From a gamma proteobacterium symbiont of Ctena orbiculata (GTDB lineage Bacteria; Pseudomonadota; Gammaproteobacteria; Chromatiales; Chromatiaceae), in assembly GCA_003094535.1 (NCBI GenBank), contig NATV01000077.1, positions 1 to 33,852 on the forward strand: a stretch of DNA of 33,852 nt, in the 5' to 3' direction. The notes beneath the pieces are model-generated. The model was not told the origin of the DNA. It saw nothing but the letters and a program-made list of their open reading frames with translations, and searched no databases. Below, piece after piece: positions 6,051 to 19,989 of this stretch. Positions within the stretch are counted from its first letter, which is position 1; each line of letters starts with the position of its first letter. The translations under genes and the position numbers were made by a program.

Positions 6051-6941
6051 TTGGCAAAGGCTATGGATTTTGACATCGCACTAAATATCACATCGGCTAT
6101 CCTCTTCATGGGGATACTGGGTCTATTGCTCTCTTCGATGCTTGCCTTTGCCAACAAAAAGCTCTGGGTCTTCGAGGATCCGCGCATCGACGAGATCGAG
6201 AGCATGCTCCCCGCGACCAACTGCGGAGCCTGCGGCAATGCCGGCTGCCGACCGTTCGCGGAAGCCCTGATCTCCGGTGAGGTCGCCCCGGCACAATGCA
6301 CGGTGAGCAGTGCGGAAGCCATCAGCGAGATCGCGGACTACCTGGGTGTCGACAGCGGCGATGTGGTAAAACGGGTCGCCCGTCTGGCGTGTGCAGGGGG
6401 CTCCCACGTGGCACGCATGCGCGCCCATTACGACGGACTTGAGAGTTGCCGCGCCGCGGCGGTGGTTTCCGGCGGACCGAAGAGCTGTACTTGGGGCTGC
6501 ATCGGCCTGGCCGATTGCGCCGATGTCTGCGACTTTGACGCCATCGCCATGGACCGATACGGACTGCCTCAGGTGGATAGCGAAAAATGCACCGCCTGTG
6601 AAGATTGCGTGGAGATCTGCCCGAAAGACCTCTTTTCCATCCAGCCGGTCGATCGCAGACTTTGGGTAGCCTGCAAAAACCTGCAACACGGCGACACCGC
6701 GGAGAATGAATGCGAGGTTGCCTGCAACGCCTGCGAGCGTTGCGTGAAAGATTCTCCGGAAGGCTTGATTTCGATCCAAAACAATCTGGCCGTGGTCGAC
6801 TACAGTAAAAACAGCCTGGCGTCACCGGTGGCGACTGAACGGTGCCCAACCGGCGCCATCGTTTGGCTCGATGATGACAAGGGAGCGATCAAGGGCATCC
6901 ACGCCAAGCGTATCGTGCGCAAAGAAGCGCTCCCTATGTAA
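6051..6941 (+). CDS. rnfB: RnfB, Fe-S subunit of the Rnf ferredoxin:NAD+ oxidoreductase complex (cluster-deficient variant)
   Basis: RnfB is membrane anchored and exchanges electrons with ferredoxin. The protein has an N-terminal helix (about 10-33), then a [4Fe-4S] domain with Cys58, Cys61, Cys66 and Cys83. A first ferredoxin domain follows with Cys146, Cys150, Cys156, Cys160 and Cys180, Cys183, Cys186, Cys190. A second has Cys225, Cys228, Cys231 but Ser235 where the fourth Cys belongs, and its partner motif keeps only the last Cys (Cys265 in RCPTGAI). At 296 residues it is of the long, clostridial/Thermotoga-like type, not the roughly 190-residue enterobacterial type. The listed start is TTG; ATG at 6063 is an alternative, and neither has a strong ribosome-binding site. 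It leads the operon, 86 bases before the oxidoreductase gene. Confidence 0.92.
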   Translation: MAKAMDFDIALNITSAILFMGILGLLLSSMLAFANKKLWVFEDPRIDEIESMLPATNCGACGNAGCRPFAEALISGEVAPAQCTVSSAEAISEIADYLGVDSGDVVKRVARLACAGGSHVARMRAHYDGLESCRAAAVVSGGPKSCTWGCIGLADCADVCDFDAIAMDRYGLPQVDSEKCTACEDCVEICPKDLFSIQPVDRRLWVACKNLQHGDTAENECEVACNACERCVKDSPEGLISIQNNLAVVDYSKNSLASPVATERCPTGAIVWLDDDKGAIKGIHAKRIVRKEALPM

Positions 6942-7027
6942 GAGGCGGCGGCAGTTCCGGTTCTGAGGCAATAAGGCTAGCCCTGAACCTCAGATAAGAG
7001 ACCCCTATCCAAGTAACTAGACTAGAG

Positions 7028-10000
7028 ATGTGTTCAATGTTTGGTAAGAAAGACGAGAAGAGCTTCAAGTATCCCGGTATTCGCATGGCGATGGACGGCA
7101 ATGGTGCGGTGATCATGTGTGAACGGGAGGCCTCGGATGCGGCGGGCGCCTATCCGATCACCCCCTCGACCCAGATGGGCGAATACTGGGCGGAAGAGAC
7201 GGCCAAGGGACATATCAACGTCTCCGACCGTTCCTTGATCTTCATTGAACCCGAATCGGAGCATGCCGCGGCGGCGGTGACCGCCGGCATGTCGATGACC
7301 GGCCTGCGTGCAACCAACTTCTCCTCGGCCCAGGGCATCGCATTCATGCATGAGTCCCTCTATGCCGCGGTGGGTAAACGCCTCCCCTATGTGCTCAATA
7401 TCGGCTGTCGCGCCATCACCAAGGCCTCGTTGAACGTCCACTGCGGCCATGACGACTTCCACTGCATCGACGATACCGGTTTTTTCCAGGTCTTTGCCAA
7501 CAATGCCCAGGGCGCCGCCGACCTCAACCTGATCGGACGCAAGATCGCCGAACTCTCCCTGACCCCGGCGGCGGTGGCCCAGGACGGCTTCCTAACCACC
7601 CATCTCATCGAACCCCTGATGGTGCCGGAGCGGGAGCTGATCGCCGAGTTCCTTGGCCGTCCCGATGATGAAATCGAGTCGCCGACACCGGCACAGAAGC
7701 TCCTCTTCGGCGATACCCGGCGCCGTGTTCCCATGGTCTGGGATGTGGACAATCCGATGCTCTCCGGCTCGGTGCAGAACCAGGACGCCTATATGCAGAC
7801 CGTGGCCGCCCAGCGCCCCTACTTCTTCCAGCATATCCCGGAGATCGCCGACCAGGTGATGGAGGAGTACTACCAGCTCACCGGCCGCCGCTATCAACGC
7901 ATCGGCTGTTACGACACCGACAAGGCCGATTATGTTATCGTCGGCATGGGTTCGATGATCGTGCAGGCCCATGGAGTTGCCGACTACCTGCTGAAAAACC
8001 GCAAGCTCAAGGTCGGTGTGGTCGACATCACCATGTTCCGCCCCTTCCCCGGCGATCACCTCGGCGCCGTGCTGAAAGGTAAAAAGGGTGTCTGTGTACT
8101 GGAACGTACCGACCAGCCTCTCGCGGAAGATCTGCCATTGATGCGCGAAGTGAGATCGGTGCTCTCAAAGTGCATCGAAAACGGCCAGGTCGCCGCAAGC
8201 AAAGAGCCGCTGCCCTACCCCGAATACGATAGCTACGGCAACTTCAGCGACGCCCCAAGGCTCTACTCCGGTGCCTATGGACTGGGATCAAGGGATCTTC
8301 AACCAGAAGGCCTGATCGCCGCGGTGGAAAACATGCTGCCTGATGGCGAGCATCGCAAGTTCTTCTACCTGGGCATAGATTTCATCCGCGAAGCGGACAA
8401 CCCGAAGCAGGAGATCCATATCCAGCGGTTGCTCGAGGCCTATCCCGAAATCGACAGTATGGCCCTGCGCGGTTCCGAGAATCCCAATCTGATGCCCGAG
8501 GGATCGATTACGGTGCGCATGCACTCCGTGGGTGGTTGGGGTGCCATCACCACCGGCAAGAATCTGGCGATGACCCTCTATGACCTGCTCGGCTACGAGA
8601 TCAAGGCGAACCCGAAGTACGGGTCCGAGAAGAAGGGGCAGCCCACCACCTACTATCTCTCCGCGGCACCGACGCCGATCCCGTTGAACTGTGAATACCA
8701 CTATGTGGATGTCGTACTGAGTCCCGATCCCAATGTCTTCGGCCACTCCAACCCACTGGCCGGCCTTAAGCAGGGCGGTACCCTGATCATCCAGTCCAAT
8801 CTCGGCAGCGCCGATGAGGTCTGGCAGACATTCCCGCGCTGGATGCAGCAGCAGATTATCGACAATGAGATCCGTGTCTTCTACGTCGACGGCTTCAAGA
8901 TCGCCCGCGAAGAGGCCTCCGATGCCGATCTGCAACTGCGGATGCAGGGCAACGCCTTCCAGGGCGCCTTCTTCGCCGGCTCGCCGCTGATGGAGATGGC
9001 CGGGCTGGACGAAAAAAAGCTGTTCAGCGCCATCGAGGACCAGCTCGAGCATAAGTTCGGCAGCAAAGGCCGCCGTGTGGTGGAGGACAACCTGCGCGTG
9101 GTGCGCCGAGGTTTCGACGAGATCCATGAGATCACCGACAAGATGGTGGGATCCGCAACCCAGGCTGCGGTGAAAAAGGAGCTGGGCATGCCGGTGATGC
9201 TGAAACAGCTACCCCAGGCGGAGGGCGGCATCTCCGATGTCCATCGCTTCTGGGAACAGACCGGCAGCTTCTACGCCACCGGCAAAGGCAGCGACAATCT
9301 CTCCGACCCCTATCAGGCGCTTTCGCTGATACCCGCCGCCACCGGGGTGTTTCGCGACATGACCCAGATCCGCTTCGACTATCCCAAGTGGGTCGCGGAA
9401 AACTGCACCGCCTGCGGCGACTGCTACGTGGTCTGCCCCGACAGCGCGATCCCGGGGCTGATCAATACCGTCGGCGACATCTTCAACACCGCCATCAACC
9501 GTATCGAGACCGCGGGTCGCCCAACCCAGTATCTCCGGCGTGAAACCCGCAATGTGGAGAAACGGCTGCGCGAGCTGCTGAATGAAGCTGGCGAGGCAGC
9601 GGACGTCCGAGAGCGCCTCGATCAGGCGGTTCTTGAATCGATCGCAGCAGCGGAAATCGAAGAGAATTCCCGTCCGGTCCTCGAAGAGGAATTCGGTCTG
9701 TTCCTCGATACCCTGGGCGAATTCGACTTCTCCGTCACCAAACCCTATTGGAACAACATGGAGAAGAAGAACAAAAACAGCGGCGGACTCTTCTCCATCA
9801 CCGTCAATCCCTACACCTGTAAAGGTTGCATGGAGTGCGTCGAGATCTGTGAGGACGACGCCCTGGTCGCCACCCATCAGGATGAAGCGGCGATCAAGCG
9901 CATGCGGGATGACTGGGACATCTGGCTCGATCTTCCCACCAGTCACCCATCTTTCAACCGTATCGACGATCTGGACGAAAAAATCGGCGCCCTGCACACC

Positions 10001-11962
10001 CTGTTGCTGGACAAGGCCAACTACAACTCCATGTCCTGCGGTGACGGCGCCTGCCTGGGATGCGGCGAAAAGACCATCATCCATCTCTTTACCAGCACAG
10101 TGACCGCACTGATGCAGCCGCGGGTGAAGGCACACCTGGAGAAGATCGACAATCTGATGGCGCAGTTGGAACAGCATGTTCGACTCAAGCTTGCTGCCGG
10201 CGTCGATCTCAGCAATGCAGATGCGATAGCGGATGTGGTCTCCAGCAACCAGGAGGCCGATCTCACCCTCTCCGACCTTAGCGACAATCTCGACCGCGCT
10301 CACGAAAAGACCGTGATCGATCGCGAATGGCTGCAGTGGGCCACCCAGTTGCTGGAACAGCTGCGGAAGCTGAAGTGGCACTACACCGAGGGTGTCACCA
10401 AGAACGGCCGTGCCGAAATGGGCATAGTCAACGCAACCGGGTGCACCTCGGTCTGGGGTTCCACCTACCCCTTCAATCCCTACCCCTTCCCCTGGGCCAG
10501 CCATCTCTTCCAGGACAGCCCATCGGTGGCGATGGGTCTCTTCGAGGGGCATATGCGCAAGATGGCGGAGGGCTTCGCGGCAATCCGCAAGGCCGAACTG
10601 GAGCTCGCCGGCAAATACAACCCGGGTGAGCATGGCGACTACTTCAAACAGTTCAGCTGGAAGGATTTCAGCAACGATGAGTGGCTGCTCTGCCCGCCGG
10701 TGGTCTCCATCGGCGGTGACGGCGCGATGTACGACATCGGCTTCCAGAATCTCTCCAGGGCATTGGCCTCCGGGATGCCGATCAAGGTCCTGGTGCTCGA
10801 CACCCAGGTCTATTCCAACACCGGCGGACAGGCCTGTACCTCCGGCTATATCGGTCAGGTAGCCGATATGAGCCCCTACGGCAAGGCCTGGAAGGGCAAG
10901 AAGGAGATCCGCAAGGAGGTATCCCTGATCGGCATCGCCCACCGCACCACCTATGTGCTGCAGGGTACGATCAGCAATACCACGCACCTGCTTGAAGGCT
11001 ATATCGACGGCCTCAACAGCCGCCGCCCGGCGCTTTTCAATATCTATGCCGTCTGTCCCCCGGAGCACGGCATCGGCGATGATGTCGCGGCCCAGCAGTC
11101 GAAGATGGCGGTCGAGGCCAGGGCCTATCCGCTGATTAAATACGATCCGGACGGTGGCGAATCCATCGAAGCGTGCATCGACCTGGAAGGCAATCCGGCG
11201 ATGGACCAGGATTGGCCGAGCTACAACATCGACTATCTGGATGAGAAGGGTGAGGCGTGCAAACTCGAGGTACCGCTGACCTTTGCCGATTTTGCGGTCA
11301 CCGAGGGGCGCTTCCGCAAACAGTTCCGCATGGCGCCACCGGAGACCTGGAACGACAACATGGTGCCGATGCATGAATTTATCGAACTCGACGAGGATGA
11401 CCGTGACGGCAAGTTCCCCTATATCTGGGGAGTCGACAGCAAAAACCGCCTGATGCGGATCATCTGTGCGGAAGAGATGGCCCACTCCTGCGAGGAGCGC
11501 CGCCAGTTCTGGCACCAGCTCAAGGGTATTGCCGGCGAACTCGACAAGGTCGACGTCAACGCCCTGGTGGATCAGGCCAAGATCGACATGGCCAACCGCC
11601 TCAGTTCAACCCTGCTCTCCATGGCGGCCACCGGCAATGCAGCTGCCCTGGCCGGATCGATCTCGGCAAACGGCAGTACCGCAGCAGCCGCTGACAGCGC
11701 AGCCATGGGCGATTACGAGCCGGTCTGGATAGAGACACCGGAGTGCACGGCCTGTGACGAGTGTATCGAGATCAATCCCGGTATCTTCGCCTACAACGAT
11801 GAGAAAAAGGCGGTGATCGTCGATCCTCAGGGAGGACAGTTCAAAGACATCGTCAAGGCCGCCGAGAAATGTACCGCCGAATGCATCCACCCCGGCACGC
11901 CCTGGAACCCATCCGAAAAAGACTTGGAAAAACTGGTCAAGCGCGCAGCAAAATATCAATAA
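7028..11962 (+). CDS. Giant 2-oxoacid:ferredoxin oxidoreductase (pyruvate:ferredoxin oxidoreductase/pyruvate synthase type)
   Basis: TPP- and Fe-S-dependent enzyme interconverting pyruvate + CoA and acetyl-CoA + CO2 with ferredoxin. Domain order fits single-chain PFOR/NifJ: pyrimidine domain with AYPITPSTQMGEYW (about 10-260), transketolase C-terminal-like domain (to about 430), gamma domain with MHSVGGWGAITTGK (about 490-690), ferredoxin domain (Cys793, 796, 799, 803; Cys931, 934, 937, 941), then the TPP domain with proximal cluster ligands Cys1009, Cys1012, Cys1139, Cys1343, the GDGAMYDIG motif (about 1230-1238) and NTGGQACTSG. Length is 1644 residues against about 1170-1230 for the family. 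The surplus comes from a helical insert between the two ferredoxin motifs, a second helical insert between Cys1012 and Cys1139, and a C-terminal extension ending in another ferredoxin-like domain (Cys1573, 1576, 1579, 1615 or 1619). Substrate pocket residues differ from textbook PFOR, so another 2-oxoacid is possible; ppsA downstream favours pyruvate. ATG at 7037 is an alternative start. Confidence 0.9.
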   Translation: MCSMFGKKDEKSFKYPGIRMAMDGNGAVIMCEREASDAAGAYPITPSTQMGEYWAEETAKGHINVSDRSLIFIEPESEHAAAAVTAGMSMTGLRATNFSSAQGIAFMHESLYAAVGKRLPYVLNIGCRAITKASLNVHCGHDDFHCIDDTGFFQVFANNAQGAADLNLIGRKIAELSLTPAAVAQDGFLTTHLIEPLMVPERELIAEFLGRPDDEIESPTPAQKLLFGDTRRRVPMVWDVDNPMLSGSVQNQDAYMQTVAAQRPYFFQHIPEIADQVMEEYYQLTGRRYQRIGCYDTDKADYVIVGMGSMIVQAHGVADYLLKNRKLKVGVVDITMFRPFPGDHLGAVLKGKKGVCVLERTDQPLAEDLPLMREVRSVLSKCIENGQVAASKEPLPYPEYDSYGNFSDAPRLYSGAYGLGSRDLQPEGLIAAVENMLPDGEHRKFFYLGIDFIREADNPKQEIHIQRLLEAYPEIDSMALRGSENPNLMPEGSITVRMHSVGGWGAITTGKNLAMTLYDLLGYEIKANPKYGSEKKGQPTTYYLSAAPTPIPLNCEYHYVDVVLSPDPNVFGHSNPLAGLKQGGTLIIQSNLGSADEVWQTFPRWMQQQIIDNEIRVFYVDGFKIAREEASDADLQLRMQGNAFQGAFFAGSPLMEMAGLDEKKLFSAIEDQLEHKFGSKGRRVVEDNLRVVRRGFDEIHEITDKMVGSATQAAVKKELGMPVMLKQLPQAEGGISDVHRFWEQTGSFYATGKGSDNLSDPYQALSLIPAATGVFRDMTQIRFDYPKWVAENCTACGDCYVVCPDSAIPGLINTVGDIFNTAINRIETAGRPTQYLRRETRNVEKRLRELLNEAGEAADVRERLDQAVLESIAAAEIEENSRPVLEEEFGLFLDTLGEFDFSVTKPYWNNMEKKNKNSGGLFSITVNPYTCKGCMECVEICEDDALVATHQDEAAIKRMRDDWDIWLDLPTSHPSFNRIDDLDEKIGALHTLLLDKANYNSMSCGDGACLGCGEKTIIHLFTSTVTALMQPRVKAHLEKIDNLMAQLEQHVRLKLAAGVDLSNADAIADVVSSNQEADLTLSDLSDNLDRAHEKTVIDREWLQWATQLLEQLRKLKWHYTEGVTKNGRAEMGIVNATGCTSVWGSTYPFNPYPFPWASHLFQDSPSVAMGLFEGHMRKMAEGFAAIRKAELELAGKYNPGEHGDYFKQFSWKDFSNDEWLLCPPVVSIGGDGAMYDIGFQNLSRALASGMPIKVLVLDTQVYSNTGGQACTSGYIGQVADMSPYGKAWKGKKEIRKEVSLIGIAHRTTYVLQGTISNTTHLLEGYIDGLNSRRPALFNIYAVCPPEHGIGDDVAAQQSKMAVEARAYPLIKYDPDGGESIEACIDLEGNPAMDQDWPSYNIDYLDEKGEACKLEVPLTFADFAVTEGRFRKQFRMAPPETWNDNMVPMHEFIELDEDDRDGKFPYIWGVDSKNRLMRIICAEEMAHSCEERRQFWHQLKGIAGELDKVDVNALVDQAKIDMANRLSSTLLSMAATGNAAALAGSISANGSTAAAADSAAMGDYEPVWIETPECTACDECIEINPGIFAYNDEKKAVIVDPQGGQFKDIVKAAEKCTAECIHPGTPWNPSEKDLEKLVKRAAKYQ

Positions 11963-12013
11963 GCACGCAGACAAGAGCAATGATGGCTGACAGAAAACGC
12001 TTCTTTTCACACA

Positions 12014-12033
12014 GGCGGGTCTGCGGATCCGCC
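12014..12033 (+). promoter_or_regulatory. GC-rich hairpin between oxidoreductase gene and rnfC
   Basis: GGCGGGTC pairs with GATCCGCC (8 bp including one G-U) around a 4-base loop. It is not followed by a T-run, so it is not a standard intrinsic terminator. It sits 21 bases before the rnfC ATG and may stabilise or separate the transcript or affect rnfC translation, whose own ribosome-binding site looks weak. Confidence 0.4.
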
Positions 12034-12054
12034 CGTTAACCGAGTCTGAGCGCT

Positions 12055-13395
12055 ATGGGACTTCTCAACCTGTTGTTTGGGCTGAAAAGCTTCACCCACG
12101 GGATCCATCCACCCTACCACAAGGATACCGCGGACAAGCCTATCCGACGACTTGCCTTTCCGTCGCAGCTGGTGCTGCCGCTGGATCAGCATATCGGCAA
12201 GCCGGCGATCCCGTTGGTGAAAAAGGGCCAGGAGGTGGTACGCGGAGAGCCGATCGCCAAGGCGGATGGCAACTTTTCGGTACCGCTCCATGCGCCTGCC
12301 ACCGGGCGGGTCCGTGACCTCGAGTTGATGCCGACCCCCAAGGGTCCGAAGTCCACCGCAATCGTTCTCGATGTCTATGAGGGTTCGACCCAGGAGGTAT
12401 TGTGGAATCAGCCCCGGGAGATGAGCGAGCTCAGCCGGGAGGAGATTCTCCAGGCGATCCAGGACAGCGGCATGGTGGGGCTCGGCGGCGCGGCCTTTCC
12501 ATCGCATATGAAGCTGACAATTCCGCCTGATAAACAGGTCGACACCCTGATCGTCAACGGCTGCGAATGCGAACCCTATCTGACCTGCGATCACCGTATC
12601 ATGCTGGAATACCCCAAGGCGCTGATCCGGGGCATTCGCTATGCAATGCAGGCTTCGGCCACCACCCAGGCCATTATCGGCATCGAGGACAATAAGATGG
12701 ATGCCGCCGAGGTCTTGCGCAACAATGTCTCCAAGGGCAGTGCCATCCGTGTGGAGGTGGTGGAGACCAAGTATCCACAGGGTTCCGAGAAGATGCTGAT
12801 CAAGTCGCTGCTCAACCGGGAAGTCCCGACGGGTGGACTGCCCGCGGATGTCGGCGTGGTGGTCAACAACGTGGGCACCCTCGCCTTTCTCGGTCAACTG
12901 CTGCCCCTGGGGCAGGGTTTGATCGAGCGGGTGATAACCGTCGCCGGACCCGGCATCGTAAAGCCAGGCAACTACCTGGTGCCCCTGGGAACACCGGTCC
13001 GTCACATTCTTGAGCAGGCCGGCTATGAGGGTTCGCGCACCGAGTTCATTCTCGGCGGCCCAATGATGGGGCCCGCCGTCTCCGCGATGGATACACCCAT
13101 CACCAAGGGCACCTCGGGTCTGTTGGTATTGAATGAGCCATCAATCGAAGATGAGAGTCAGAGAATCTGGCCCTGTATCCGCTGCGCGCGCTGCGTCAAG
13201 GCCTGTCCCATGCATCTCAACCCCTCTATGCTTGGACTGTTGGCGGCAAAACGCAAATATGACGAGATGGCACAGGATTACCACCTCAACGACTGTTTCG
13301 AATGCGGCTGCTGTTCCTACGTCTGCCCTTCCAACATACCCCTTGTACAATATTTCAGAATCTCCAAGGCGATCAACAGAGAGCAGGCCGCATGA
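12055..13395 (+). CDS. rnfC: RnfC, NADH-binding Fe-S/FMN subunit of the Rnf complex
   Basis: Peripheral subunit that binds NADH and FMN and passes electrons into the Rnf chain; homologous to the NuoF family. The 446-residue protein has an N-terminal barrel-sandwich region (HGIHPPYHKDTADKPI), a glycine-rich nucleotide-binding segment (GMVGLGGAAFPSHMK, about 141-155), NGCECEPYLTCDHR (about 167-180), and two complete C-terminal [4Fe-4S] motifs: Cys374, 377, 380, 384 and Cys414, 417, 420, 424. The length is close to clostridial RnfC; the long Lys/Ala-rich tail of E. coli RsxC is missing. Its stop overlaps the rnfD start by four bases, and it lies 92 bases after the oxidoreductase gene. Confidence 0.96.
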   Translation: MGLLNLLFGLKSFTHGIHPPYHKDTADKPIRRLAFPSQLVLPLDQHIGKPAIPLVKKGQEVVRGEPIAKADGNFSVPLHAPATGRVRDLELMPTPKGPKSTAIVLDVYEGSTQEVLWNQPREMSELSREEILQAIQDSGMVGLGGAAFPSHMKLTIPPDKQVDTLIVNGCECEPYLTCDHRIMLEYPKALIRGIRYAMQASATTQAIIGIEDNKMDAAEVLRNNVSKGSAIRVEVVETKYPQGSEKMLIKSLLNREVPTGGLPADVGVVVNNVGTLAFLGQLLPLGQGLIERVITVAGPGIVKPGNYLVPLGTPVRHILEQAGYEGSRTEFILGGPMMGPAVSAMDTPITKGTSGLLVLNEPSIEDESQRIWPCIRCARCVKACPMHLNPSMLGLLAAKRKYDEMAQDYHLNDCFECGCCSYVCPSNIPLVQYFRISKAINREQAA

Positions 13396-14438
13396 GCAAG
13401 AAACCCACCATTGAGTTGCGCACCTCGCCCCATGCCCATGCGGGGGACGATGTGATCAGGATCATGCGCAACGTGGTCTACGCCCTGGTCCCGATCTCTC
13501 TCTTCACCATCTGGCAGTTCGGACTCAGCGCCCTTGCCCTGCTCATCGTGGTGACCGTCACATGCCTGCTCAGTGAACGTCTTTTCAATCGGCTCAGTGA
13601 AACACCCAGCAGTCTCGGCGACTGGTCGGCCACCATTACCGGCCTGCTGTTGGCCTTGACCCTGCCGCCGGGCTTTCCGCTCTGGATGGGCGCGGTTGCA
13701 GGCTTCATCGCCATCGCCCTCGGCAAGGCCCTGTTCGGCGGCCTGGGGATGAATGCCATGAACCCGGCGCTGATCGGCCGCGCCTTTGTGCAGGCGGCCT
13801 TCCCCGTTGCCATTACCACCTGGACCCCCGCGTTTTTCGAGGGACGCTTCAGCCAGTTCGTACCGACCACCCTGACCCCCCCCTTCCTGCAGCCGCCCGC
13901 GCTCGCCGACTGGGTGGAGACGGTCAAGGTGGACGCCTTCAGCGGCGCCACTCCGCTGGCACTGCAGAAGTTCGAGGGGGTACAAATCGACATCCTGGAT
14001 ATGTTGCTGGGCACCACCGCCGGATCGGCCGGCGAGACCTCGGCGCTGCTGATCCTGATCTGCGGACTCTACCTGGCGGCACGTAAAATGCTCGACTGGC
14101 GAATTCCGCTGATGGTGATGCTGGGAGCCGCGGCCACGGCGGGGATCTTTTTCCTCATCGATCCGGCACGTTATCCCGACCCCCTCTTCGTCCTCTGTTC
14201 CGGCGGCCTCATGCTGGGGGCCTGGTTCATGGCAAGCGACATGGTTGGCTCGCCGGTCACCCCTCTCGGGGTCATTATCTATGGACTGATGATCGGCATC
14301 ATTACCGTGATCATCCGTCTCTTCGGCGGCCTCACCGAGGGCGTGATGTACGCCATCCTGCTCGGCAACGCGGCAACGCCCCTGATCGACCAGATAACCC
14401 AGCCCCGTGTTTTCGGTGAGCAGAGGACAGGCAAATGA
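13392..14438 (+). CDS. rnfD: RnfD, flavinylated membrane subunit of the Rnf complex
   Basis: Integral membrane subunit carrying covalent FMN and taking part in ion-coupled electron transfer. The 348-residue protein has about nine to ten hydrophobic segments. The flavinylation motif DAFSGATPLAL places the modified threonine at residue 187, the same position as in E. coli RsxD. GGLGMNAMNPALIGRAF and FMASDMVGSPVTP are typical family segments. I chose ATG 13392 (MSKKPTIELRTSPH) because it overlaps the rnfC stop in an ATGA arrangement; the longer upstream open frame lies inside rnfC. The gene needs an ApbE-type flavin transferase, which is not in this window. Translation is probably coupled to rnfC and rnfG. 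Confidence 0.96.
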   Translation: MSKKPTIELRTSPHAHAGDDVIRIMRNVVYALVPISLFTIWQFGLSALALLIVVTVTCLLSERLFNRLSETPSSLGDWSATITGLLLALTLPPGFPLWMGAVAGFIAIALGKALFGGLGMNAMNPALIGRAFVQAAFPVAITTWTPAFFEGRFSQFVPTTLTPPFLQPPALADWVETVKVDAFSGATPLALQKFEGVQIDILDMLLGTTAGSAGETSALLILICGLYLAARKMLDWRIPLMVMLGAAATAGIFFLIDPARYPDPLFVLCSGGLMLGAWFMASDMVGSPVTPLGVIIYGLMIGIITVIIRLFGGLTEGVMYAILLGNAATPLIDQITQPRVFGEQRTGK

Positions 14439-15154
14439 GCACCCCCGAAGCCGAAGCCCTGCCACCGTCGACACCTGCAGGAAAGATGATTCAGACCCTG
14501 GTTGGGATTGCCATGCTGTCCGGCTTTCTGGTGGTGCTCACCTATCAGCTGACCAAACCGATCATCGCGGAAAATCAACGCCGGGCGATTGAGGCCGCGG
14601 TATTCACAGTCATTCCCGATGCCGTTGTGCGCAGGGATTTCGTGATCAACGACGAGGGGCTTACCCCGGTTACCGGAGAGGAATCGGTCGAGGGTGTGCT
14701 GATCTACGCCGGGTACAATCGCGACGGGGAGTTGAAGGGGATCGCGGCAAAGGCTGCCGCCCAGGGTTATGCGGATCTGATCCACCTCCTCTACGGCTAC
14801 GACCCCGGCTGCGAGTGTATCCGCGGCATGAAAGTCCTGAAACTCGCCGAAACCCCCGGCCTGGGCGATAAGATCATCACCGATGCCAACTTCGTCGCCA
14901 ATTTCGAGGCCCTGGATGCCAGGCTCAGTAGCGATGGCTCAACCCTGGCCAACGAGATCGTCACCGTCAAAGCCGGCAGCAAGCAGAATCCCTGGGAGAT
15001 CGATGCCATCTCCGGGGCCACCATCTCTTCGAAAGCGGTGGGCAAGGCGATCAATCAGTCGGCCAAGCAACTGCTGCCCAGCATCACCCCCCACCTGGAA
15101 AAGCTGAAACAGCCCCCGGTTCTGCCGGATCAGCATGAGGTCGCTGATGATTAA
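14435..15154 (+). CDS. rnfG: RnfG, FMN-binding subunit of the Rnf complex
   Basis: Membrane-anchored subunit with covalently bound FMN on the outer face of the membrane. The 239-residue protein has an N-terminal helix (about 23-45) and a C-terminal FMN-binding domain with the motif ISGATISSKAV, making Thr196 the predicted flavinylation site. The segment ETPGLGDKI is the usual family hallmark. It begins in an ATGA overlap with rnfD and its end overlaps rnfE. A short extra Cys pair (CECIRG, around residue 128) is visible before KVLKLAETPG. Identification is firm from motifs and from position in the run rnfCDGEA. Confidence 0.95.
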   Translation: MSTPEAEALPPSTPAGKMIQTLVGIAMLSGFLVVLTYQLTKPIIAENQRRAIEAAVFTVIPDAVVRRDFVINDEGLTPVTGEESVEGVLIYAGYNRDGELKGIAAKAAAQGYADLIHLLYGYDPGCECIRGMKVLKLAETPGLGDKIITDANFVANFEALDARLSSDGSTLANEIVTVKAGSKQNPWEIDAISGATISSKAVGKAINQSAKQLLPSITPHLEKLKQPPVLPDQHEVADD

Positions 15155-15791
15155 AGAGAAACCCACCATCACCTGGGAGACGTTCACAGAGGGATTGTGG
15201 CGGGAAAACCCTGTATTCGTCATGCTGCTCGGCATGTGTCCGGTGCTGGCGGTGACCAACTCGGCGATCAACGCCCTGGCCATGGGACTCGCGACTACAT
15301 TTGTCCTGCTTGCCTCCGGCACATTGATATCCCTGCTCCGTCACAACATACCGAAGCAGGTCAGAATCGCCACCTATATCGTGATCATCGCCACCTTCGT
15401 CACCATCGTCGACTACACCATCCAGGCCATCTCCCTGGATCTCTACAACGCATTGGGCGCCTTCATCCAGCTGATTGTGGTGAACTGCATGATCCTCGGG
15501 CGTGCCGAGGCCTACGCCTCGCGAAACAGGCCGCTGAAGGCCGTGGTCAACGGCCTGGGAATGGGTATCGGCTTCACCTTCGCCCTGCTCTGCCTGGGTG
15601 TGGTGCGGGAGATTCTGGGCGCCGGCACCCTGTTCGGACTCGATCTTTTCGGACCCCGTTTCGAACCCTGGGTGGTGATGCTGCTCCCACCCGGCGGCTT
15701 TCTCGTCCTCGGCGCCTGGTTGCTGCTGTTCGAGTGGATTAGGCAGAGGAAAGAGCGGGCGGAACTGGAAACTGCGGCGGAAACAAGATGA
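15147..15791 (+). CDS. rnfE: RnfE, integral membrane subunit of the Rnf complex
   Basis: One of the two homologous six-helix subunits (RnfA/RnfE, related to NqrD/NqrE) that form the ion-translocating core and hold a shared Fe-S centre. The 214-residue protein shows the family segments NPVFVMLLGMCPVLAVTNSA (Cys ligand), VDYTIQAI and QLIVVNCMILGRAEAYASRN (second Cys). I chose ATG 15147 (MIKEKPTITW), which has GAGG six bases upstream, over ATG 15135. It overlaps the rnfG end by eight bases. About six transmembrane segments are visible and the C-terminal tail is charged (RQRKERAELE). Confidence 0.95.
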   Translation: MIKEKPTITWETFTEGLWRENPVFVMLLGMCPVLAVTNSAINALAMGLATTFVLLASGTLISLLRHNIPKQVRIATYIVIIATFVTIVDYTIQAISLDLYNALGAFIQLIVVNCMILGRAEAYASRNRPLKAVVNGLGMGIGFTFALLCLGVVREILGAGTLFGLDLFGPRFEPWVVMLLPPGGFLVLGAWLLLFEWIRQRKERAELETAAETR

Positions 15792-15938
15792 ATATTTTTG
15801 AATGTTTTATTTTTAATTTTGAGTTGCCGGTGTGCGCTACGCGCACGCCGTTGTTAAAACGCGCGAGCGATGCGAGCTCCTCAATTCATAATTCAAAATT
15901 CAAAATTCAAAATTCCCAAGCCCGGAGGGCGCCCAACA
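15792..15938. repeat. Repeat-bearing spacer between rnfE and rnfA (hairpin plus heptamer repeat)
   Basis: The otherwise overlapping operon is broken here by 147 bases of different composition. An AT-rich left part is followed by a 9-bp hairpin with a 3-base loop at 15829-15849 (GGTGTGCGC against GCGCACGCC, one G-U) and a GC-rich stretch. Then comes a heptamer ATTCAAA repeated about 3.5 times at 15891-15915, ending 23 bases before the rnfA ATG. A ribosome-binding site GGAGG (15924-15928) follows. The overall make-up resembles a small inserted repeat element. Confidence 0.65.
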
Positions 15939-16520
15939 ATGGGTAGTGAAACACTCAGCTTCATATTCCTCAACGCGGTCCTGGCGAACAACTTCGTCCT
16001 CGCGCTGTTTCTCGGTCTCTGCCCGTTTCTCGGGGTTTCCGGTAAACTCAACACCGCACTGCCCATGGGGCTTGCAACCATGTTCGTGATGCTGGTCAGC
16101 TCGGTCTGCGCCTACCTGATCAACCTCGTACTGGTGACATTTGAGATCGAGTTCCTGCGCCTGATCGCCTATATCGCGGTCATCGCCAGCGCGGTACAGC
16201 TGGTCGAGATGACCCTGAAGAAATTCACCCCGGGACTGTTCCGCTCCCTGGGCATCTTTCTGCCGCTGATCACCACCAACTGCGCCATCCTCGGACTGGC
16301 CCTGTTCCAGACCTTCAAGGAATATGACTTCCTGCAATCGCTGGTTTATGCCCTGGGTGCGGGCACCGGCTTCATGCTGGCGATCCTGTTAATGGCCGGG
16401 CTGCGGGAAAAACTGGAGCTCTCTACCATGCCCACCATCACCCAGGGGGCGGCGGTGAGCCTGATACTCGGTGGCTTGCTGTCGCTCTCGTTCATGGGAT
16501 TTGCCGGACTCGGAGGCTAG
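15939..16520 (+). CDS. rnfA: RnfA, integral membrane subunit of the Rnf complex
   Basis: The partner of RnfE in the membrane core. The 193-residue protein has about six transmembrane helices and the paired family motifs AVLANNFVLALFLGLCPFLG and LITTNCAILGLALF, each with the Cys expected to bind the intramembrane Fe-S centre. I chose ATG 15939 (MGSETLSFIFLNAVLANN), since GGAGG lies ten bases upstream and the family begins at this point; the longer open frame to the left only reads through the repeat spacer. Its TAG stop is four bases before the next GTG start. Confidence 0.96.
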   Translation: MGSETLSFIFLNAVLANNFVLALFLGLCPFLGVSGKLNTALPMGLATMFVMLVSSVCAYLINLVLVTFEIEFLRLIAYIAVIASAVQLVEMTLKKFTPGLFRSLGIFLPLITTNCAILGLALFQTFKEYDFLQSLVYALGAGTGFMLAILLMAGLREKLELSTMPTITQGAAVSLILGGLLSLSFMGFAGLGG

Positions 16521-16524
16521 GAGA

Positions 16525-16722
16525 GTGTTAGACTATCTGATCGCCATGACAATCATTCCCTTACTGCTGCTCGGTTGGTTGATCGTGCAATCGATCGCGC
16601 GGCGTTTCGCCAAGCTGCATCCTGAATTCGGCCCCCCCAGGGAAGAGGGTACGGGCTGCGGAAAGAGCTGTTCATGCAGCGGCAGCAGCTGCCAACGTCA
16701 AGGAGACCACCTCAGAGGTTAA
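16525..16722 (+). CDS. Small Cys-rich single-span membrane protein, Rnf-associated
   Basis: A 65-residue protein starting with GTG, preceded by GGAGG (16512-16516) eight bases upstream. Residues about 6-24 form one hydrophobic helix ([18 protein letters not shown]), then a basic stretch and a C-terminal tail with five to six cysteines closely set ([13 protein letters not shown]). It is tightly packed: four bases after rnfA and five before ppsA, so it belongs to the operon. It has the general look of small membrane proteins linked to metal or Fe-S handling, but I do not recognise a named family. It could help insert the RnfA/RnfE iron-sulfur centre or deliver metal; that is guesswork from position and cysteines. 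Confidence 0.75.
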
Positions 16723-16727
16723 AAACA

Positions 16728-19136
16728 ATGAATGAGCCATCCAATCAATCCAAAAACCGTGGCCAGGCGCTGAATGAACAGGTCATCTGGTTCGAGCACC
16801 TGAAGATGCAGGATGTGGATCAGGTCGGCGGAAAGAATGCCTCTTTGGGTGAAATGATCGGTGGCCTTGCCGATGTGGGTGTCAGCGTACCGGGAGGTTT
16901 TGCCACCACGGCCCATGCCTTCCGTGAGTTCTTGCGTCACAACAACCTTGCGCAACGGATTGATCCTTTGTTGAAAAACCTCGATGTGGAGGATGTCACC
17001 GCCCTGGCCGAGGCGGGCAAGACGATACGTCAATGGGTTGTTGAATCCAGCTTTCCCGAAGCCCTGGAAAACGCGATTATCGACGCCTACAAAGCGCTCA
17101 CCGGCGATGCGGATAACCCGCCATCGGTGGCGGTGCGCTCCTCGGCAACCGCGGAGGACCTGCCGGATGCCTCATTTGCAGGACAGCAGGAGACCTTTCT
17201 CAATGTCCAGGGTCTGGACAGCGTCATGGTCGCCATCAAGGAAGTCTTTGCCTCCCTCTACAACGATCGGGCGATATCCTATCGGGTGCATCAGGGCTTT
17301 GCCCACGAGGAGGTGGCCCTCTCCGCCGGCATTCAGCGCATGGTACGTTCCGACATCGGCGCAGCGGGGGTCATGTTCACCCTGGATACGGAGTCCGGTT
17401 TCAAGGATGCGGTCTTCATCACCAGCTCCTATGGGCTGGGTGAGACGGTGGTGCAGGGCTCTGTGAATCCGGATGAGTTTTATGTGCACAAGGGGAATGT
17501 GGAAGCGGGACGCCCGGCTATCCTGCGCCGCAATCTCGGCAGCAAGGCGATTAAGATGGTCTACGGAGAGAGCGCGGAGGAGCGGGTGGTCACCGTGGAT
17601 GTGGCGGAACAGGAGCGACGCCGGTTCTCCCTAACCAATGAACAGGTGGAGAGCCTGGCGCAGATGGCGATAACCATCGAAAAGCACTATCAGCGGCCGA
17701 TGGATATCGAGTGGGGCCTAGATGGCAGCGACGGCCGGCTATACATCCTGCAGGCCCGTCCCGAGACGGTGGAGAGCCGGGTCGACAGCTCATCGGTGGA
17801 GCGCTTCAAGATGGAGGAGAAGGGCAAGGTGTTGGCCCAGGGCCGCGCCATCGGTCAGCGCATCGGCGTCGGGGTAGCGAAGGTGATTCACAGCGCCAGC
17901 GAAATGGCCAAGGTCGAACCCGGCGATGTGTTGGTCACCGACATGACCGATCCCGACTGGGAACCGGTGATGAAACGCGCCTCCGCCATTGTCACCAACC
18001 GGGGCGGACGCACCTGCCATGCCGCGATCATCGCCCGTGAACTGGGAATTCCCGCGGTGGTGGGCTGTCACGATGCCACCGAGTCCCTGGTGGAGGGTCA
18101 GGAGGTCACGGTATCCTGCGCCGAGGGCGATGACGGCTTTATCTACGAAGGCCAGCTGAAATTCTCCATCAGTCGTGGCGATGTCACCGCGCTGCCGGAG
18201 CCCCCCGCCAAGATCATGATGAATGTGGCCAATCCCAGCCGCGCCTTTGCCTTCAGCCGTATTCCCAACGCCGGCATCGGCCTGGCACGCCTCGAGTTCA
18301 TCATCAACACCACCATTGGTGTCCACCCCAAGGCATTGATGGAGTTCGACAATCTTCCCGGCGATCTCAAGGCCAAGGTACAGAGCCATATCGATGGCTA
18401 TCCCGATCCGGTGGAGTTTTATGTCGAGAAACTGGTCGAGGGGATCTCCACCCTCGCTGCCGCCTTCAACGGAAAACCGGTGATCGTGCGCACCTCCGAT
18501 TTCAAATCCAACGAATATGCGAACCTGATCGGCGGCAAGCTCTATGAACCCGAAGAAGAGAATCCGATGATCGGTTTCCGCGGGGCGTCGCGCTATATCT
18601 CAGAGAGTTTTAGAGCCTGCTTCGAACTGGAGTGCAGGGCCCTGAAACGGGTTCGGGAAGAGATGGGATTTGACAACGTAGAGATCATGATTCCCTTCGT
18701 TCGCACCCTGGACGAGGCGGCCCAGGTCATCCAGCTGCTGGAGGAGAACGGTCTGAAACGGGGCGAGAACGGCTTGAAGGTGATCATGATGTGCGAATTG
18801 CCCTCCAACGCTGTATTGGCCAGGGAGTTCCTGGAATATTTCGACGGCTTCTCCATCGGTTCCAACGACATGACCCAGTTGACCCTGGGCCTGGACCGTG
18901 ATTCCGGCCTCGTCGCCCAGAGCTTCGATGAGAGAAATCCTGGTGTGAAACGGATGCTGGAGATGGCGATCCAGGCCTGTAACGAGGCCGGAAAATATGT
19001 CGGCATCTGCGGCCAGGGCCCTTCGGATTACCCAGAGCTGGCTGAGTGGCTGGTGGAACAAGGCATCAAGAGCATGTCGCTGAATCCGGACACCGTGATC
19101 GACACCTGGCGTCTCCTGGCCGGTCAGGAGAGCTGA
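16728..19136 (+). CDS. ppsA: Phosphoenolpyruvate synthase (pyruvate, water dikinase)
   Basis: Makes PEP + AMP + phosphate from pyruvate + ATP + water in the cytosol, the entry to gluconeogenesis from pyruvate. The 802 residues match the family length. Order: N-terminal ATP-grasp nucleotide-binding domain ([11 protein letters not shown], about 35-45; [19 protein letters not shown]), phosphohistidine swivel domain with [21 protein letters not shown] (catalytic His431; Thr429 is the residue a PpsR-type regulator phosphorylates), and a TIM-barrel PEP/pyruvate domain with [36 protein letters not shown] and [12 protein letters not shown] (catalytic Cys761). ATG 16728 was chosen because the longer frame runs into the upstream gene. 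It directly follows the rnf genes and precedes its own regulator ppsR. Confidence 0.97.
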
Positions 19137-19164
19137 TCGAAACCGATTGGGGCGTAGTGACCGT

Positions 19165-19989
19165 ATGAAACGCACCATCTTCTTTCTTGCCGATCACACC
19201 GGTATTACCGTTGAGGCCATGGGACGGTCGTTGCTGAGCCAATTCGAAGGTTTTAGCTACGAAACGGTCCATTGGCCTTTCATCGACAGCCTGGACAAGG
19301 CGAGGCGGGTTGCGGAACGAATCAACCAGACGACCATGGAGTCGGAGCAGAAACCGATCGTCTTCACTACCCTGGTCGATCCCCAGATTCGTGACTATTT
19401 CAAACAGCTCGACGTCCCGGTGATGGACTTTTTCGAGACCTTCACCAGCCGACTCGAGGATGAACTCCAGCTGCCTTCCTCCCATGCCCTGGGCCGTTTT
19501 CATACCACCGACAATAACCGGGCCTATGACCAGCGCATCCATGCCGTCAACTTCGCATTGAACAACGACGATGGGGCAGTGACAAAAAACTATACCACTG
19601 CAGACCTGATCCTGATTGGTGTATCCCGTGTCGGCAAGACACCCACCTGCCTCTTTCTCGGTCTGCAACATAGCGTCCTGGCGGCGAACTACCCCCTCAC
19701 CGATGACGACCTGAATAACGATCTGCTACCCAAACCTTTACGCACCTACAAAGATAAGCTCTATGGCCTGACCATCGATCCGCAGCAGTTACAGAGGATT
19801 CGCCAGGAACGGCGCCCGGATCGCCGCTACTCCACCCTCGAGCAGTGTAAATTGGAGATCAAGATGGCGGAGGATCTTTTCAAGCACTACAAGATCCCCT
19901 ATTTGGATACCACATCCATGTCCATCGAGGAGATATCAGCAAGGCTCCTGCAACATATAAACCGGGCCGCAAAGGTCTCTAACGACTGA
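19165..19989 (+). CDS. ppsR: PEP synthase regulatory kinase/pyrophosphorylase PpsR
   Basis: Bifunctional regulator that inactivates PEP synthase by ADP-dependent phosphorylation of a threonine next to the catalytic histidine and reactivates it by Pi-dependent removal (DUF299 family, YdiA in E. coli). The 274-residue protein starts KRTIFFLADHTGITVEAMG, has the P-loop-like GVSRVGKTPT at 152-161, and carries the C-terminal RRYSTLEQCKLEI and YLDTTSMSIEEIS segments. ATG 19165 is preferred over the in-frame TTG 19147. It lies 28 bases after ppsA, so the enzyme and its switch are co-transcribed here; in E. coli the two genes are neighbours but divergent. The target Thr429-Cys-His431 is present in this PpsA. 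Confidence 0.96.
   Translation: MKRTIFFLADHTGITVEAMGRSLLSQFEGFSYETVHWPFIDSLDKARRVAERINQTTMESEQKPIVFTTLVDPQIRDYFKQLDVPVMDFFETFTSRLEDELQLPSSHALGRFHTTDNNRAYDQRIHAVNFALNNDDGAVTKNYTTADLILIGVSRVGKTPTCLFLGLQHSVLAANYPLTDDDLNNDLLPKPLRTYKDKLYGLTIDPQQLQRIRQERRPDRRYSTLEQCKLEIKMAEDLFKHYKIPYLDTTSMSIEEISARLLQHINRAAKVSND

Follow-up and report, generated by a model that had tools for sequence, protein, structure and literature searches.

Introduction

The closest described relative of the locus studied here is the rnf2 operon of the Solemya velum symbiont, in which pyruvate:ferredoxin oxidoreductase (PFOR) genes lie inside an rnfBCDGEA operon, between rnfB2 and rnfC2, and pyruvate is proposed as a possible electron donor to Rnf; the accessible part of that account does not mention ppsA/ppsR, a ferredoxin tail, a spread over several phyla or split forms without catalysis (PMC4287430). 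The rnfBCDGEA operon of Bacteroidetes/Chlorobi, as given in the accessible text, has the same six subunits in the order B-C-D-G-E-A (PMC3534657), whereas the operon described here carries an oxidoreductase gene between B and C and has ppsA and ppsR appended. This operon occupies positions 6051-19989 on the plus strand of a 33,852-nucleotide stretch of contig NATV01000077.1 (the window, meaning the whole stretch analysed), and its host is a Candidatus Thiodiazotropha-like gammaproteobacterium. The inserted gene encodes a single-chain pyruvate-type 2-oxoacid:ferredoxin oxidoreductase (POR), and we lean towards the view that the operon specifies an Rnf complex in which this POR is a dedicated low-potential electron partner, so that Rnf would not be served by free ferredoxin only.

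Other systems resemble parts of the locus. Single-chain PFORs of the NifJ type (D. africanus 1b0p, M. thermoacetica 6cin-6ciq) have the POR_N, PFOR_II, POR and thiamine pyrophosphate (TPP) domains, the two ferredoxin-type clusters and the active-site residues in common with the window POR, but measure 1171-1231 residues against 1644 in the window POR with its tail ferredoxin. In tubeworm symbionts, dimeric KorAB is encoded in clusters with tricarboxylic acid (TCA) cycle genes (PMC6315080, accessible part), and a 'PFOR-like' gene and korAB(3) have been reported, in the text available, to drop together in expression (PMC11636981). In the available description of the Allochromatium vinosum genome, three rnf clusters are listed, with a role said to be entirely unclear (PMC3368242). 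A first-pass annotation of the window had stated that no operon with a PFOR inside the rnf genes was known; the Solemya velum report overturns this (PMC4287430, accessible part), and the arrangement is also common across genomes. The core arrangement is therefore already in print, and what is added here concerns how widely it occurs, the ferredoxin tail and the split form: in the freely accessible literature we found no account of the cross-phylum distribution, of the tail ferredoxin or of split PORs beside korAB.

An oxidoreductase with a tail ferredoxin inside the rnf operon

Co-oriented on the plus strand, as are all features described below, rnfB, the POR gene, rnfC-D-G-E-A, a gene for a 65-residue Cys-rich protein, ppsA and ppsR follow one another with spacings of 86, 92, -94, -4, -20, 147, 4, 5 and 10 bases, and none of these open reading frames (ORFs) between 6051 and 19989 holds an internal stop. 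The ORFs and family matches bear out the gene content and the one-strand run with gaps of at most 147 bases given in the first-pass annotation; the 'several ATGA overlaps' it reported came down to a single 4-base ATGA at rnfD/rnfG, the overlaps at rnfC/rnfD and rnfG/rnfE being 94 and 20 bases. An assembly artefact of the window genome was ruled out, since the same gene order is present in other genomes. A consensus scan returned 3 promoter-like sites against a shuffle mean of 6.3 and 10 terminator-like sites against 11.2; because the sites are no commoner than in shuffled sequences, the scan does not settle whether the operon yields a single transcript. The window assembly comprises 4.29 Mb in 182 contigs, and the closest POR found in the genome collection, 95% identical, is that of a Ctena orbiculata symbiont.

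The POR gene (7028-11962) encodes a protein of 1644 residues, the long Rnf-linked form, which is matched by the Pfam models POR_N, PFOR_II, POR, TPP_enzyme_C, Fer4_13 and further Fer4 models. Residues 770-941 (9335-9850) contain two [4Fe-4S] sites of ferredoxin type, C793/796/799/803 and C931/934/937/941, separated by a stretch predicted to be helical, and the TPP motif runs from GGDGA (1229-1233) to YSNTGG (1262-1267) at 10712-10828. An Ala/Ser/Gly-rich linker (residues 1536-1560; 11633-11707) leads to a C-terminal ferredoxin domain (residues 1569-1644; 11732-11959) with a single [4Fe-4S] site (C1573/1576/1579/1615), recognised by Fer4_13, by a ferredoxin I match and in the structure model.

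We aligned 90 members of the group, omitting L048 as too short, and used residues T31, E64, R114 and N996 of the D. africanus PFOR as active-site references. In 89-90 of the 90, their equivalents are conserved along with the TPP GDG and the cysteines of three [4Fe-4S] sites, which supports a PFOR-type active site; judged from its sequence, the window POR is complete and retains pyruvate-type active-site residues. The tail-ferredoxin cysteines, which form the fourth [4Fe-4S] site, are conserved in 82 of the 90. Three of the eight rows with gaps there (L039, L046 and L075) end earlier, and the other five stop at or nearly at contig ends. The linker varies freely among the members and is predicted to be disordered (predicted local distance difference test, pLDDT, below 50), while the adjoining ferredoxin is modelled confidently. 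The model, which covers residues 770-1644, has a mean pLDDT of 80 and a predicted template modelling score of 0.81, and its best Foldseek match is the PFOR 6ciq (E 1.3e-17, TM-score 0.41 by query length). By sequence and fold, the closest solved relatives of the window POR are pyruvate enzymes. Filing it as NifJ was ruled out by its score on the NifJ equivalog model TIGR02176, 399 bits against a cut-off of 911, where the separate NifJ of the same genome reaches 1732; the two belong to the same superfamily.

Linkage of the oxidoreductase to rnf genes across genomes

A pattern scan of 84,980 species genomes yielded 171 stretches that encode POR relatives, and the best 80 of these were examined, a locus being counted as testable when it had at least 300 bases of flank or when the gene itself was seen. 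Among the testable loci, rnfB lies upstream of the POR gene in 74/76 and rnfC downstream in 70/73, and both are present in 66/69. By record title, the 80 loci include Gammaproteobacteria (Chromatiaceae, Shewanella), Opitutaceae, Planctomycetota, Gemmatimonadota, Rokubacteria, a spirochaete and deltaproteobacteria, so the conserved rnfB-oxidoreductase-rnfC neighbourhood that the first-pass annotation had envisaged was found across several phyla. The unit is carried by Allochromatium humboldtianum, A. palmeri and A. warmingii (L024, L026 and L028), by other named strains such as Marichromatium gracile (L023), and by Shewanella (L031 and L045, the latter Shewanella canadensis).

Congruent results came from an evenly drawn class sample of 369 genomes, 29 of which gave POR matches at E<=1e-100. 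With group labels that we assigned, these divide into 21 genomes with a POR of the window group (at least 54% identity), 3 with the split form only, 4 with two-chain enzymes and one, G196, with an unassigned fragment. In all 21 genomes with a window-group POR, rnfB or rnfC adjoins it. When the same sample was searched with RnfB, 35 places in 31 genomes were found, 30 of which are given as loci. At identities of at least ~49%, a POR or split POR directly adjoins rnfB in 26 of 28 loci; one of the remaining two ends at a contig edge (L210), and in the other rnfB has been relocated behind rnfA of the same operon (L212, the same as G249). The two loci at 35-41% identity are rnf operons of another order, with no POR within their 1.5-kb flanks. 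The recurrence of the arrangement in both sets rules out chance adjacency. POR, RnfB and RnfC also appear to have been inherited together, their distances agreeing with a Mantel r of 0.95-0.96 (0/999 permutations, 62 sequences, species descent uncorrected).

Split oxidoreductases beside korAB

A second rnf-linked group is 27-31% identical to the window POR over full-length matches and consists of two proteins, PORb1 and PORb2, encoded in the order korA-korB-PORb2-rnfB-PORb1-(sucC-sucD)-rnfC-D-G-E-A. In 21 loci that we chose from the wider matches (G319:C41 and G390:C248, for example, were left out), rnfB precedes PORb1 in 21/21, PORb2 stands further upstream in 18/19 testable loci and korB in 16/17, while rnfC is downstream in 16/18 and sucC just downstream in 7/18. 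The two ferredoxin-type sites keep their full set of eight cysteines in 20/20 PORb1 sequences, and the four proximal-cluster cysteines together with the equivalents of T31, E64 and N996 are conserved in 0/20. The GGDG seen in some PORb1 was rejected as a TPP motif, as it falls in the region of window residue 1005, outside the TPP column, and a Pfam scan of two PORb1 proteins gave no TPP_enzyme_C and no POR (gamma) match. In the 17 PORb2 sequences the proximal cysteines are gone save one C in one sequence, the D and G of GDG occur in 0/17, and the tail-ferredoxin cysteines are conserved in 16-17/17. The N1264 column shows N in 16/17 PORb2, yet an alignment of four of them has this loop deleted, and the count was given no weight. 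From these residues, the split form is probably catalytically inactive. POR thus appears to have retained both position and wiring within rnf operons although active-site residues were lost, which is hard to explain for a merely co-expressed enzyme. The PORb2 gene of one genome (G034, L136:12648-15153) shows an apparent frame-change split ahead of the tail ferredoxin.

The neighbouring korA and korB genes of L127 and L061 encode POR_N, POR and TPP_enzyme_C domains by Pfam. Their alpha chains pass the broad TIGR03710 (489 and 533 bits against 483) and fall below the cut-off of PRK09627 for 2-oxoglutarate synthase (175 and 203 against 579), and the beta chains fall below TIGR02177 (230 and 238 against 262); because the cut-offs for 2-oxoglutarate enzymes are missed, korAB is used here as a label. 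In a quick tree of 31 sequences, which included 16 of the 90 window-group PORs and 8 of the 20 PORb1 and in which long branches may join falsely, the two rnf-linked groups formed one cluster (98), to which two-chain PORs, Nfn-neighbour PORs and NifJ did not belong.

A third order, korA-korB-X-rnfB-POR-rnfCDGEA, was found in loci whose POR is at most ~51% identical to that of the window. Of those with 3.5 kb or more of upstream sequence, 16/16 have a korB-like gene before rnfB and 15/16 have korA; by labels that we assigned, here as for the ppsA counts below, they belong to Gemmatimonadota, Planctomycetota, Rokubacteria, Benthicola, Halieaceae and one other gammaproteobacterium. When every one of the 64 loci with 3.5 kb upstream is counted, korB occurs in 18, and the two outside this set are L039 and L046, in which korAB and a PORb2-like gene are placed after rnfA. 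In a profile comparison, the ~335-residue protein X matched PORb2 (probability 95.8, E 6.8e-9) and POR weakly (77%); its profile was built from the 18 longest ORFs, of which that of L068 looks wrong-frame and those of L072 and L077 are partial.

Beyond these groups, the two-chain PORs of L128, L129 and L131 had no adjoining rnf gene in the stretches examined. Neither did three PORs with intact active-site positions and 34-36% identity (L180:2827-10676, L182:2724-10795 and L183:5603-13618), although the L180 contig carries a split-POR rnf operon further along (L181). Each of these three is followed by a protein of 951-969 residues, which in L180 has Fer4_20, Pyr_redox_2, NAD_binding_1 and DHODB-type Fe-S domains and resembles a fused NfnA and NfnB. 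A canonical NifJ of 1191 residues in G000:C60 (L093) adjoins an ORF resembling an NAD(P) reductase.

Phosphoenolpyruvate genes and the direction of flux

The ppsA gene (16728-19136) encodes phosphoenolpyruvate (PEP) synthase (TIGR01418, 1195 bits, cut-off 740) and is the only copy above the cut-off in the window assembly, and ppsR (19147-19989) encodes the PEP synthase regulatory kinase/phosphorylase (NF049928, 354.3 bits, cut-off 350). Downstream of the unit, ppsA is present in 17/17 loci of Thiodiazotropha, Sedimenticola and one Chromatiales locus, and ppsR in 16/17. Among the other loci with at least 7.7 kb downstream, ppsA was found in 0/37, one of which (L030) has a ppsR-like gene. The genome G125, of a different family, has ppsA downstream of the unit. 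The 0/37 outside the Thiodiazotropha/Sedimenticola type rules out that PpsA is part of the module; ppsA is a local, lineage-level addition, and korAB is absent at this place in the window lineage. The linkage of ppsA and ppsR described in the first-pass annotation stands for the Thiodiazotropha/Sedimenticola type and was not found in the 37 other loci. Its argument that the two genes favour the synthetic direction keeps its force for this host, and bears on the lineage, not on the module.

The window assembly also encodes AceE and a true NifJ (1732 bits); since these offer other routes of pyruvate oxidation, they lean weakly to synthesis here. A search for ATP-citrate lyase (PF16114) gave no match in the window genome, but 14/14 control genomes were silent too, and the result does not demonstrate absence. 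A published study of Kentron, another thiotroph, proposes in its accessible part that PFOR carboxylates while polyhydroxyalkanoate is mobilised; in its table, as it reads there, citrate cleavage is entered under Endoriftia but not under Thiodiazotropha, whose entries include PFOR, Rnf, PEP synthase and polyhydroxyalkanoate (PMC6593406). Overall we consider synthesis somewhat the likelier direction over oxidation. About 4 kb upstream of rnfB, at 163-1926, lies aceK, which encodes isocitrate dehydrogenase kinase/phosphatase, the switch of the glyoxylate bypass.

Rnf subunits and a small Cys-rich protein

All six Rnf subunits are encoded in the operon, and the NCBIfam cut-offs are reached by B, C, D, E and A. 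The Fe-S electron-input subunit RnfB (6051-6941) has 296 residues from a TTG start (ATG at 6063 possible), carries the Pfam domains FeS and Fer4 and scores 94.6 bits on TIGR01944 (cut-off 68.7). RnfC (12055-13395) has 446 residues (TIGR01945, 510.9 bits, cut-off 246), and the assembly has two further rnfC genes above the cut-off. RnfD (13302-14438, with a later start possible at 13392 or 13464) scores 287 bits on TIGR01946 (cut-off 207). RnfG (14435-15154), at 99.9 bits, is slightly below its cut-off of 102 and has the FMN_bind domain, while RnfE (15135-15791; 240.9 bits, cut-off 213.4) and RnfA (15939-16520; 193 residues from ATG in an ORF open from 15870; 233.1 bits, cut-off 229.3) exceed theirs. 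SGATP in RnfD and SGATIS in RnfG are flavin-attachment motifs of the SGAT type. The 147-base gap between rnfE and rnfA (15792-15938) holds short attcaaa repeats. In other loci, a protein of ~285 residues is encoded beside rnfA (L034:19538-20395, L133:1862-2716 and L138:2520-3371), and those of L034 and L133, when scanned, showed an NAD-binding flavin-reductase-like domain.

The small gene after rnfA (16525-16722, GTG start) encodes 65 residues, with a Cys-rich tail and a single helix that probably spans the membrane. A protein of 60-70 residues with this layout follows rnfA in 43/80 loci; a 44th match, in L073, looks like chance. By a crude pattern, similar small ORFs occur in Gemmatimonadota and in 40/55 testable loci overall. 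A Pfam search up to E=1 gave only chance-level matches (best E 0.068) and no NqrM, so membership of NqrM was rejected and the likeness is one of layout. In the Nqr operon, which has NqrM and ApbE, the gene for a small membrane Fe-S maturation protein also follows the structural genes (PMC12174285, accessible part), whereas the window protein has no Pfam match to NqrM. By this analogy, the 65-residue protein may be an NqrM-like maturation factor, the Rnf counterpart of NqrM.

Discussion

Our results are consistent with POR as a module for electron input that is physically attached to Rnf, probably by docking. Electrons would pass, in either direction, between the thiamine site of the POR, its three internal [4Fe-4S] sites, the tail ferredoxin and RnfB, and from RnfB via the other Rnf subunits to RnfC and NAD, with the tail ferredoxin moving as a swinging arm on its flexible linker. 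In this host, most likely, NADH and the ion gradient would be spent to carboxylate acetyl-CoA, drawn for example from stored polyhydroxyalkanoate or from acetate, to pyruvate and on to PEP, an outcome favoured by the presence of ppsA and ppsR. More tentatively, and with the odds somewhat against it, POR could be constitutively part of an enlarged Rnf, as a peripheral subunit, making the complex an ion pump with 2-oxoacid:NAD oxidoreductase activity and a ferredoxin on a tethered arm. The split pseudoenzyme of the sister lineage would then be a wired adaptor between a korAB-like enzyme and Rnf, and in the Gemmatimonadota type a single Rnf would be shared by an active POR and, via the degenerate POR-domain protein X, by a korAB-like enzyme.

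Several observations weigh against a dedicated, tied POR. A neighbourhood does not by itself prove contact between POR and Rnf, the agreement of distances carries no correction for species descent, and in the accessible literature we found no structure or biochemistry of any group member. The linkage has exceptions: a deltaproteobacterial POR of the window group (L075, 9986-14503) has no rnf gene within ~10 kb on each side, the short contig L059 shows korB-X-POR without rnfB or rnfC, rnfC alone was not seen in 642 bases in L072, and G036 has none within 1.5 kb of its POR. Among the split loci, rnfC was not seen in 6.3 kb downstream in L190 and in 4 kb in L188. The PORs of L039, L046 and L075 lack the tail ferredoxin, which is therefore not essential to the group. 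Residual sites persist in PORb1 (the R114 equivalent in 13/20, the D of the TPP motif in 8/20 and its second G in 4/20), and the window POR is far below the TIGR02176 cut-off.

Two other explanations are possible, though each strikes us as less probable than a dedicated POR. One is that the unit works oxidatively, turning pyruvate into acetyl-CoA and storing the energy released between POR and NAD in an ion gradient, with ppsA and ppsR sharing a promoter or diverting flux. The accessible part of the Solemya velum symbiont paper interprets the unit in that way (PMC4287430), the korB and korA genes of the loci with POR at most ~51% identical (16/16 and 15/16) would suit a TCA cycle running oxidatively no less than one running reductively, and sucC lies just downstream in 7/18 split-POR loci; against it stand the 17/17 ppsA genes of the window lineage and the aceE and separate NifJ of the window assembly. 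The other, which we place on the same footing, is ordinary co-regulation, with POR and Rnf merely co-expressed and linked by soluble ferredoxin without any physical tie. Diffusible ferredoxin is the classical link between POR and Rnf, and L075 shows that such a POR can occur without neighbouring rnf genes; nevertheless, the near-constant adjacency across phyla, the joint inheritance of POR, RnfB and RnfC, the tail ferredoxin on POR and the electron-transfer sites retained in forms without active-site residues all argue for more than shared expression. That POR acts on another 2-oxoacid (2-oxobutyrate, a branched-chain or an aryl oxoacid), as the 399 bits on TIGR02176 and the presence of a true NifJ might suggest, is improbable given the conserved T31, E64, R114 and N996 equivalents, the pyruvate enzymes among its best solved relatives and the adjoining ppsA.

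If POR is indeed a dedicated partner of Rnf, low-potential electrons could bypass free ferredoxin, through fixed wiring between an ion pump and carbon enzymes. In sulfur-oxidising symbionts and purple sulfur bacteria, NADH and the ion gradient could then drive the fixation of CO2 onto acetyl-CoA by a direct route, and the split form would be an example of an enzyme surviving as a wire once its chemistry was lost. As the unit is carried by named Chromatiaceae strains and by Shewanella, it is open to genetic and biochemical testing.

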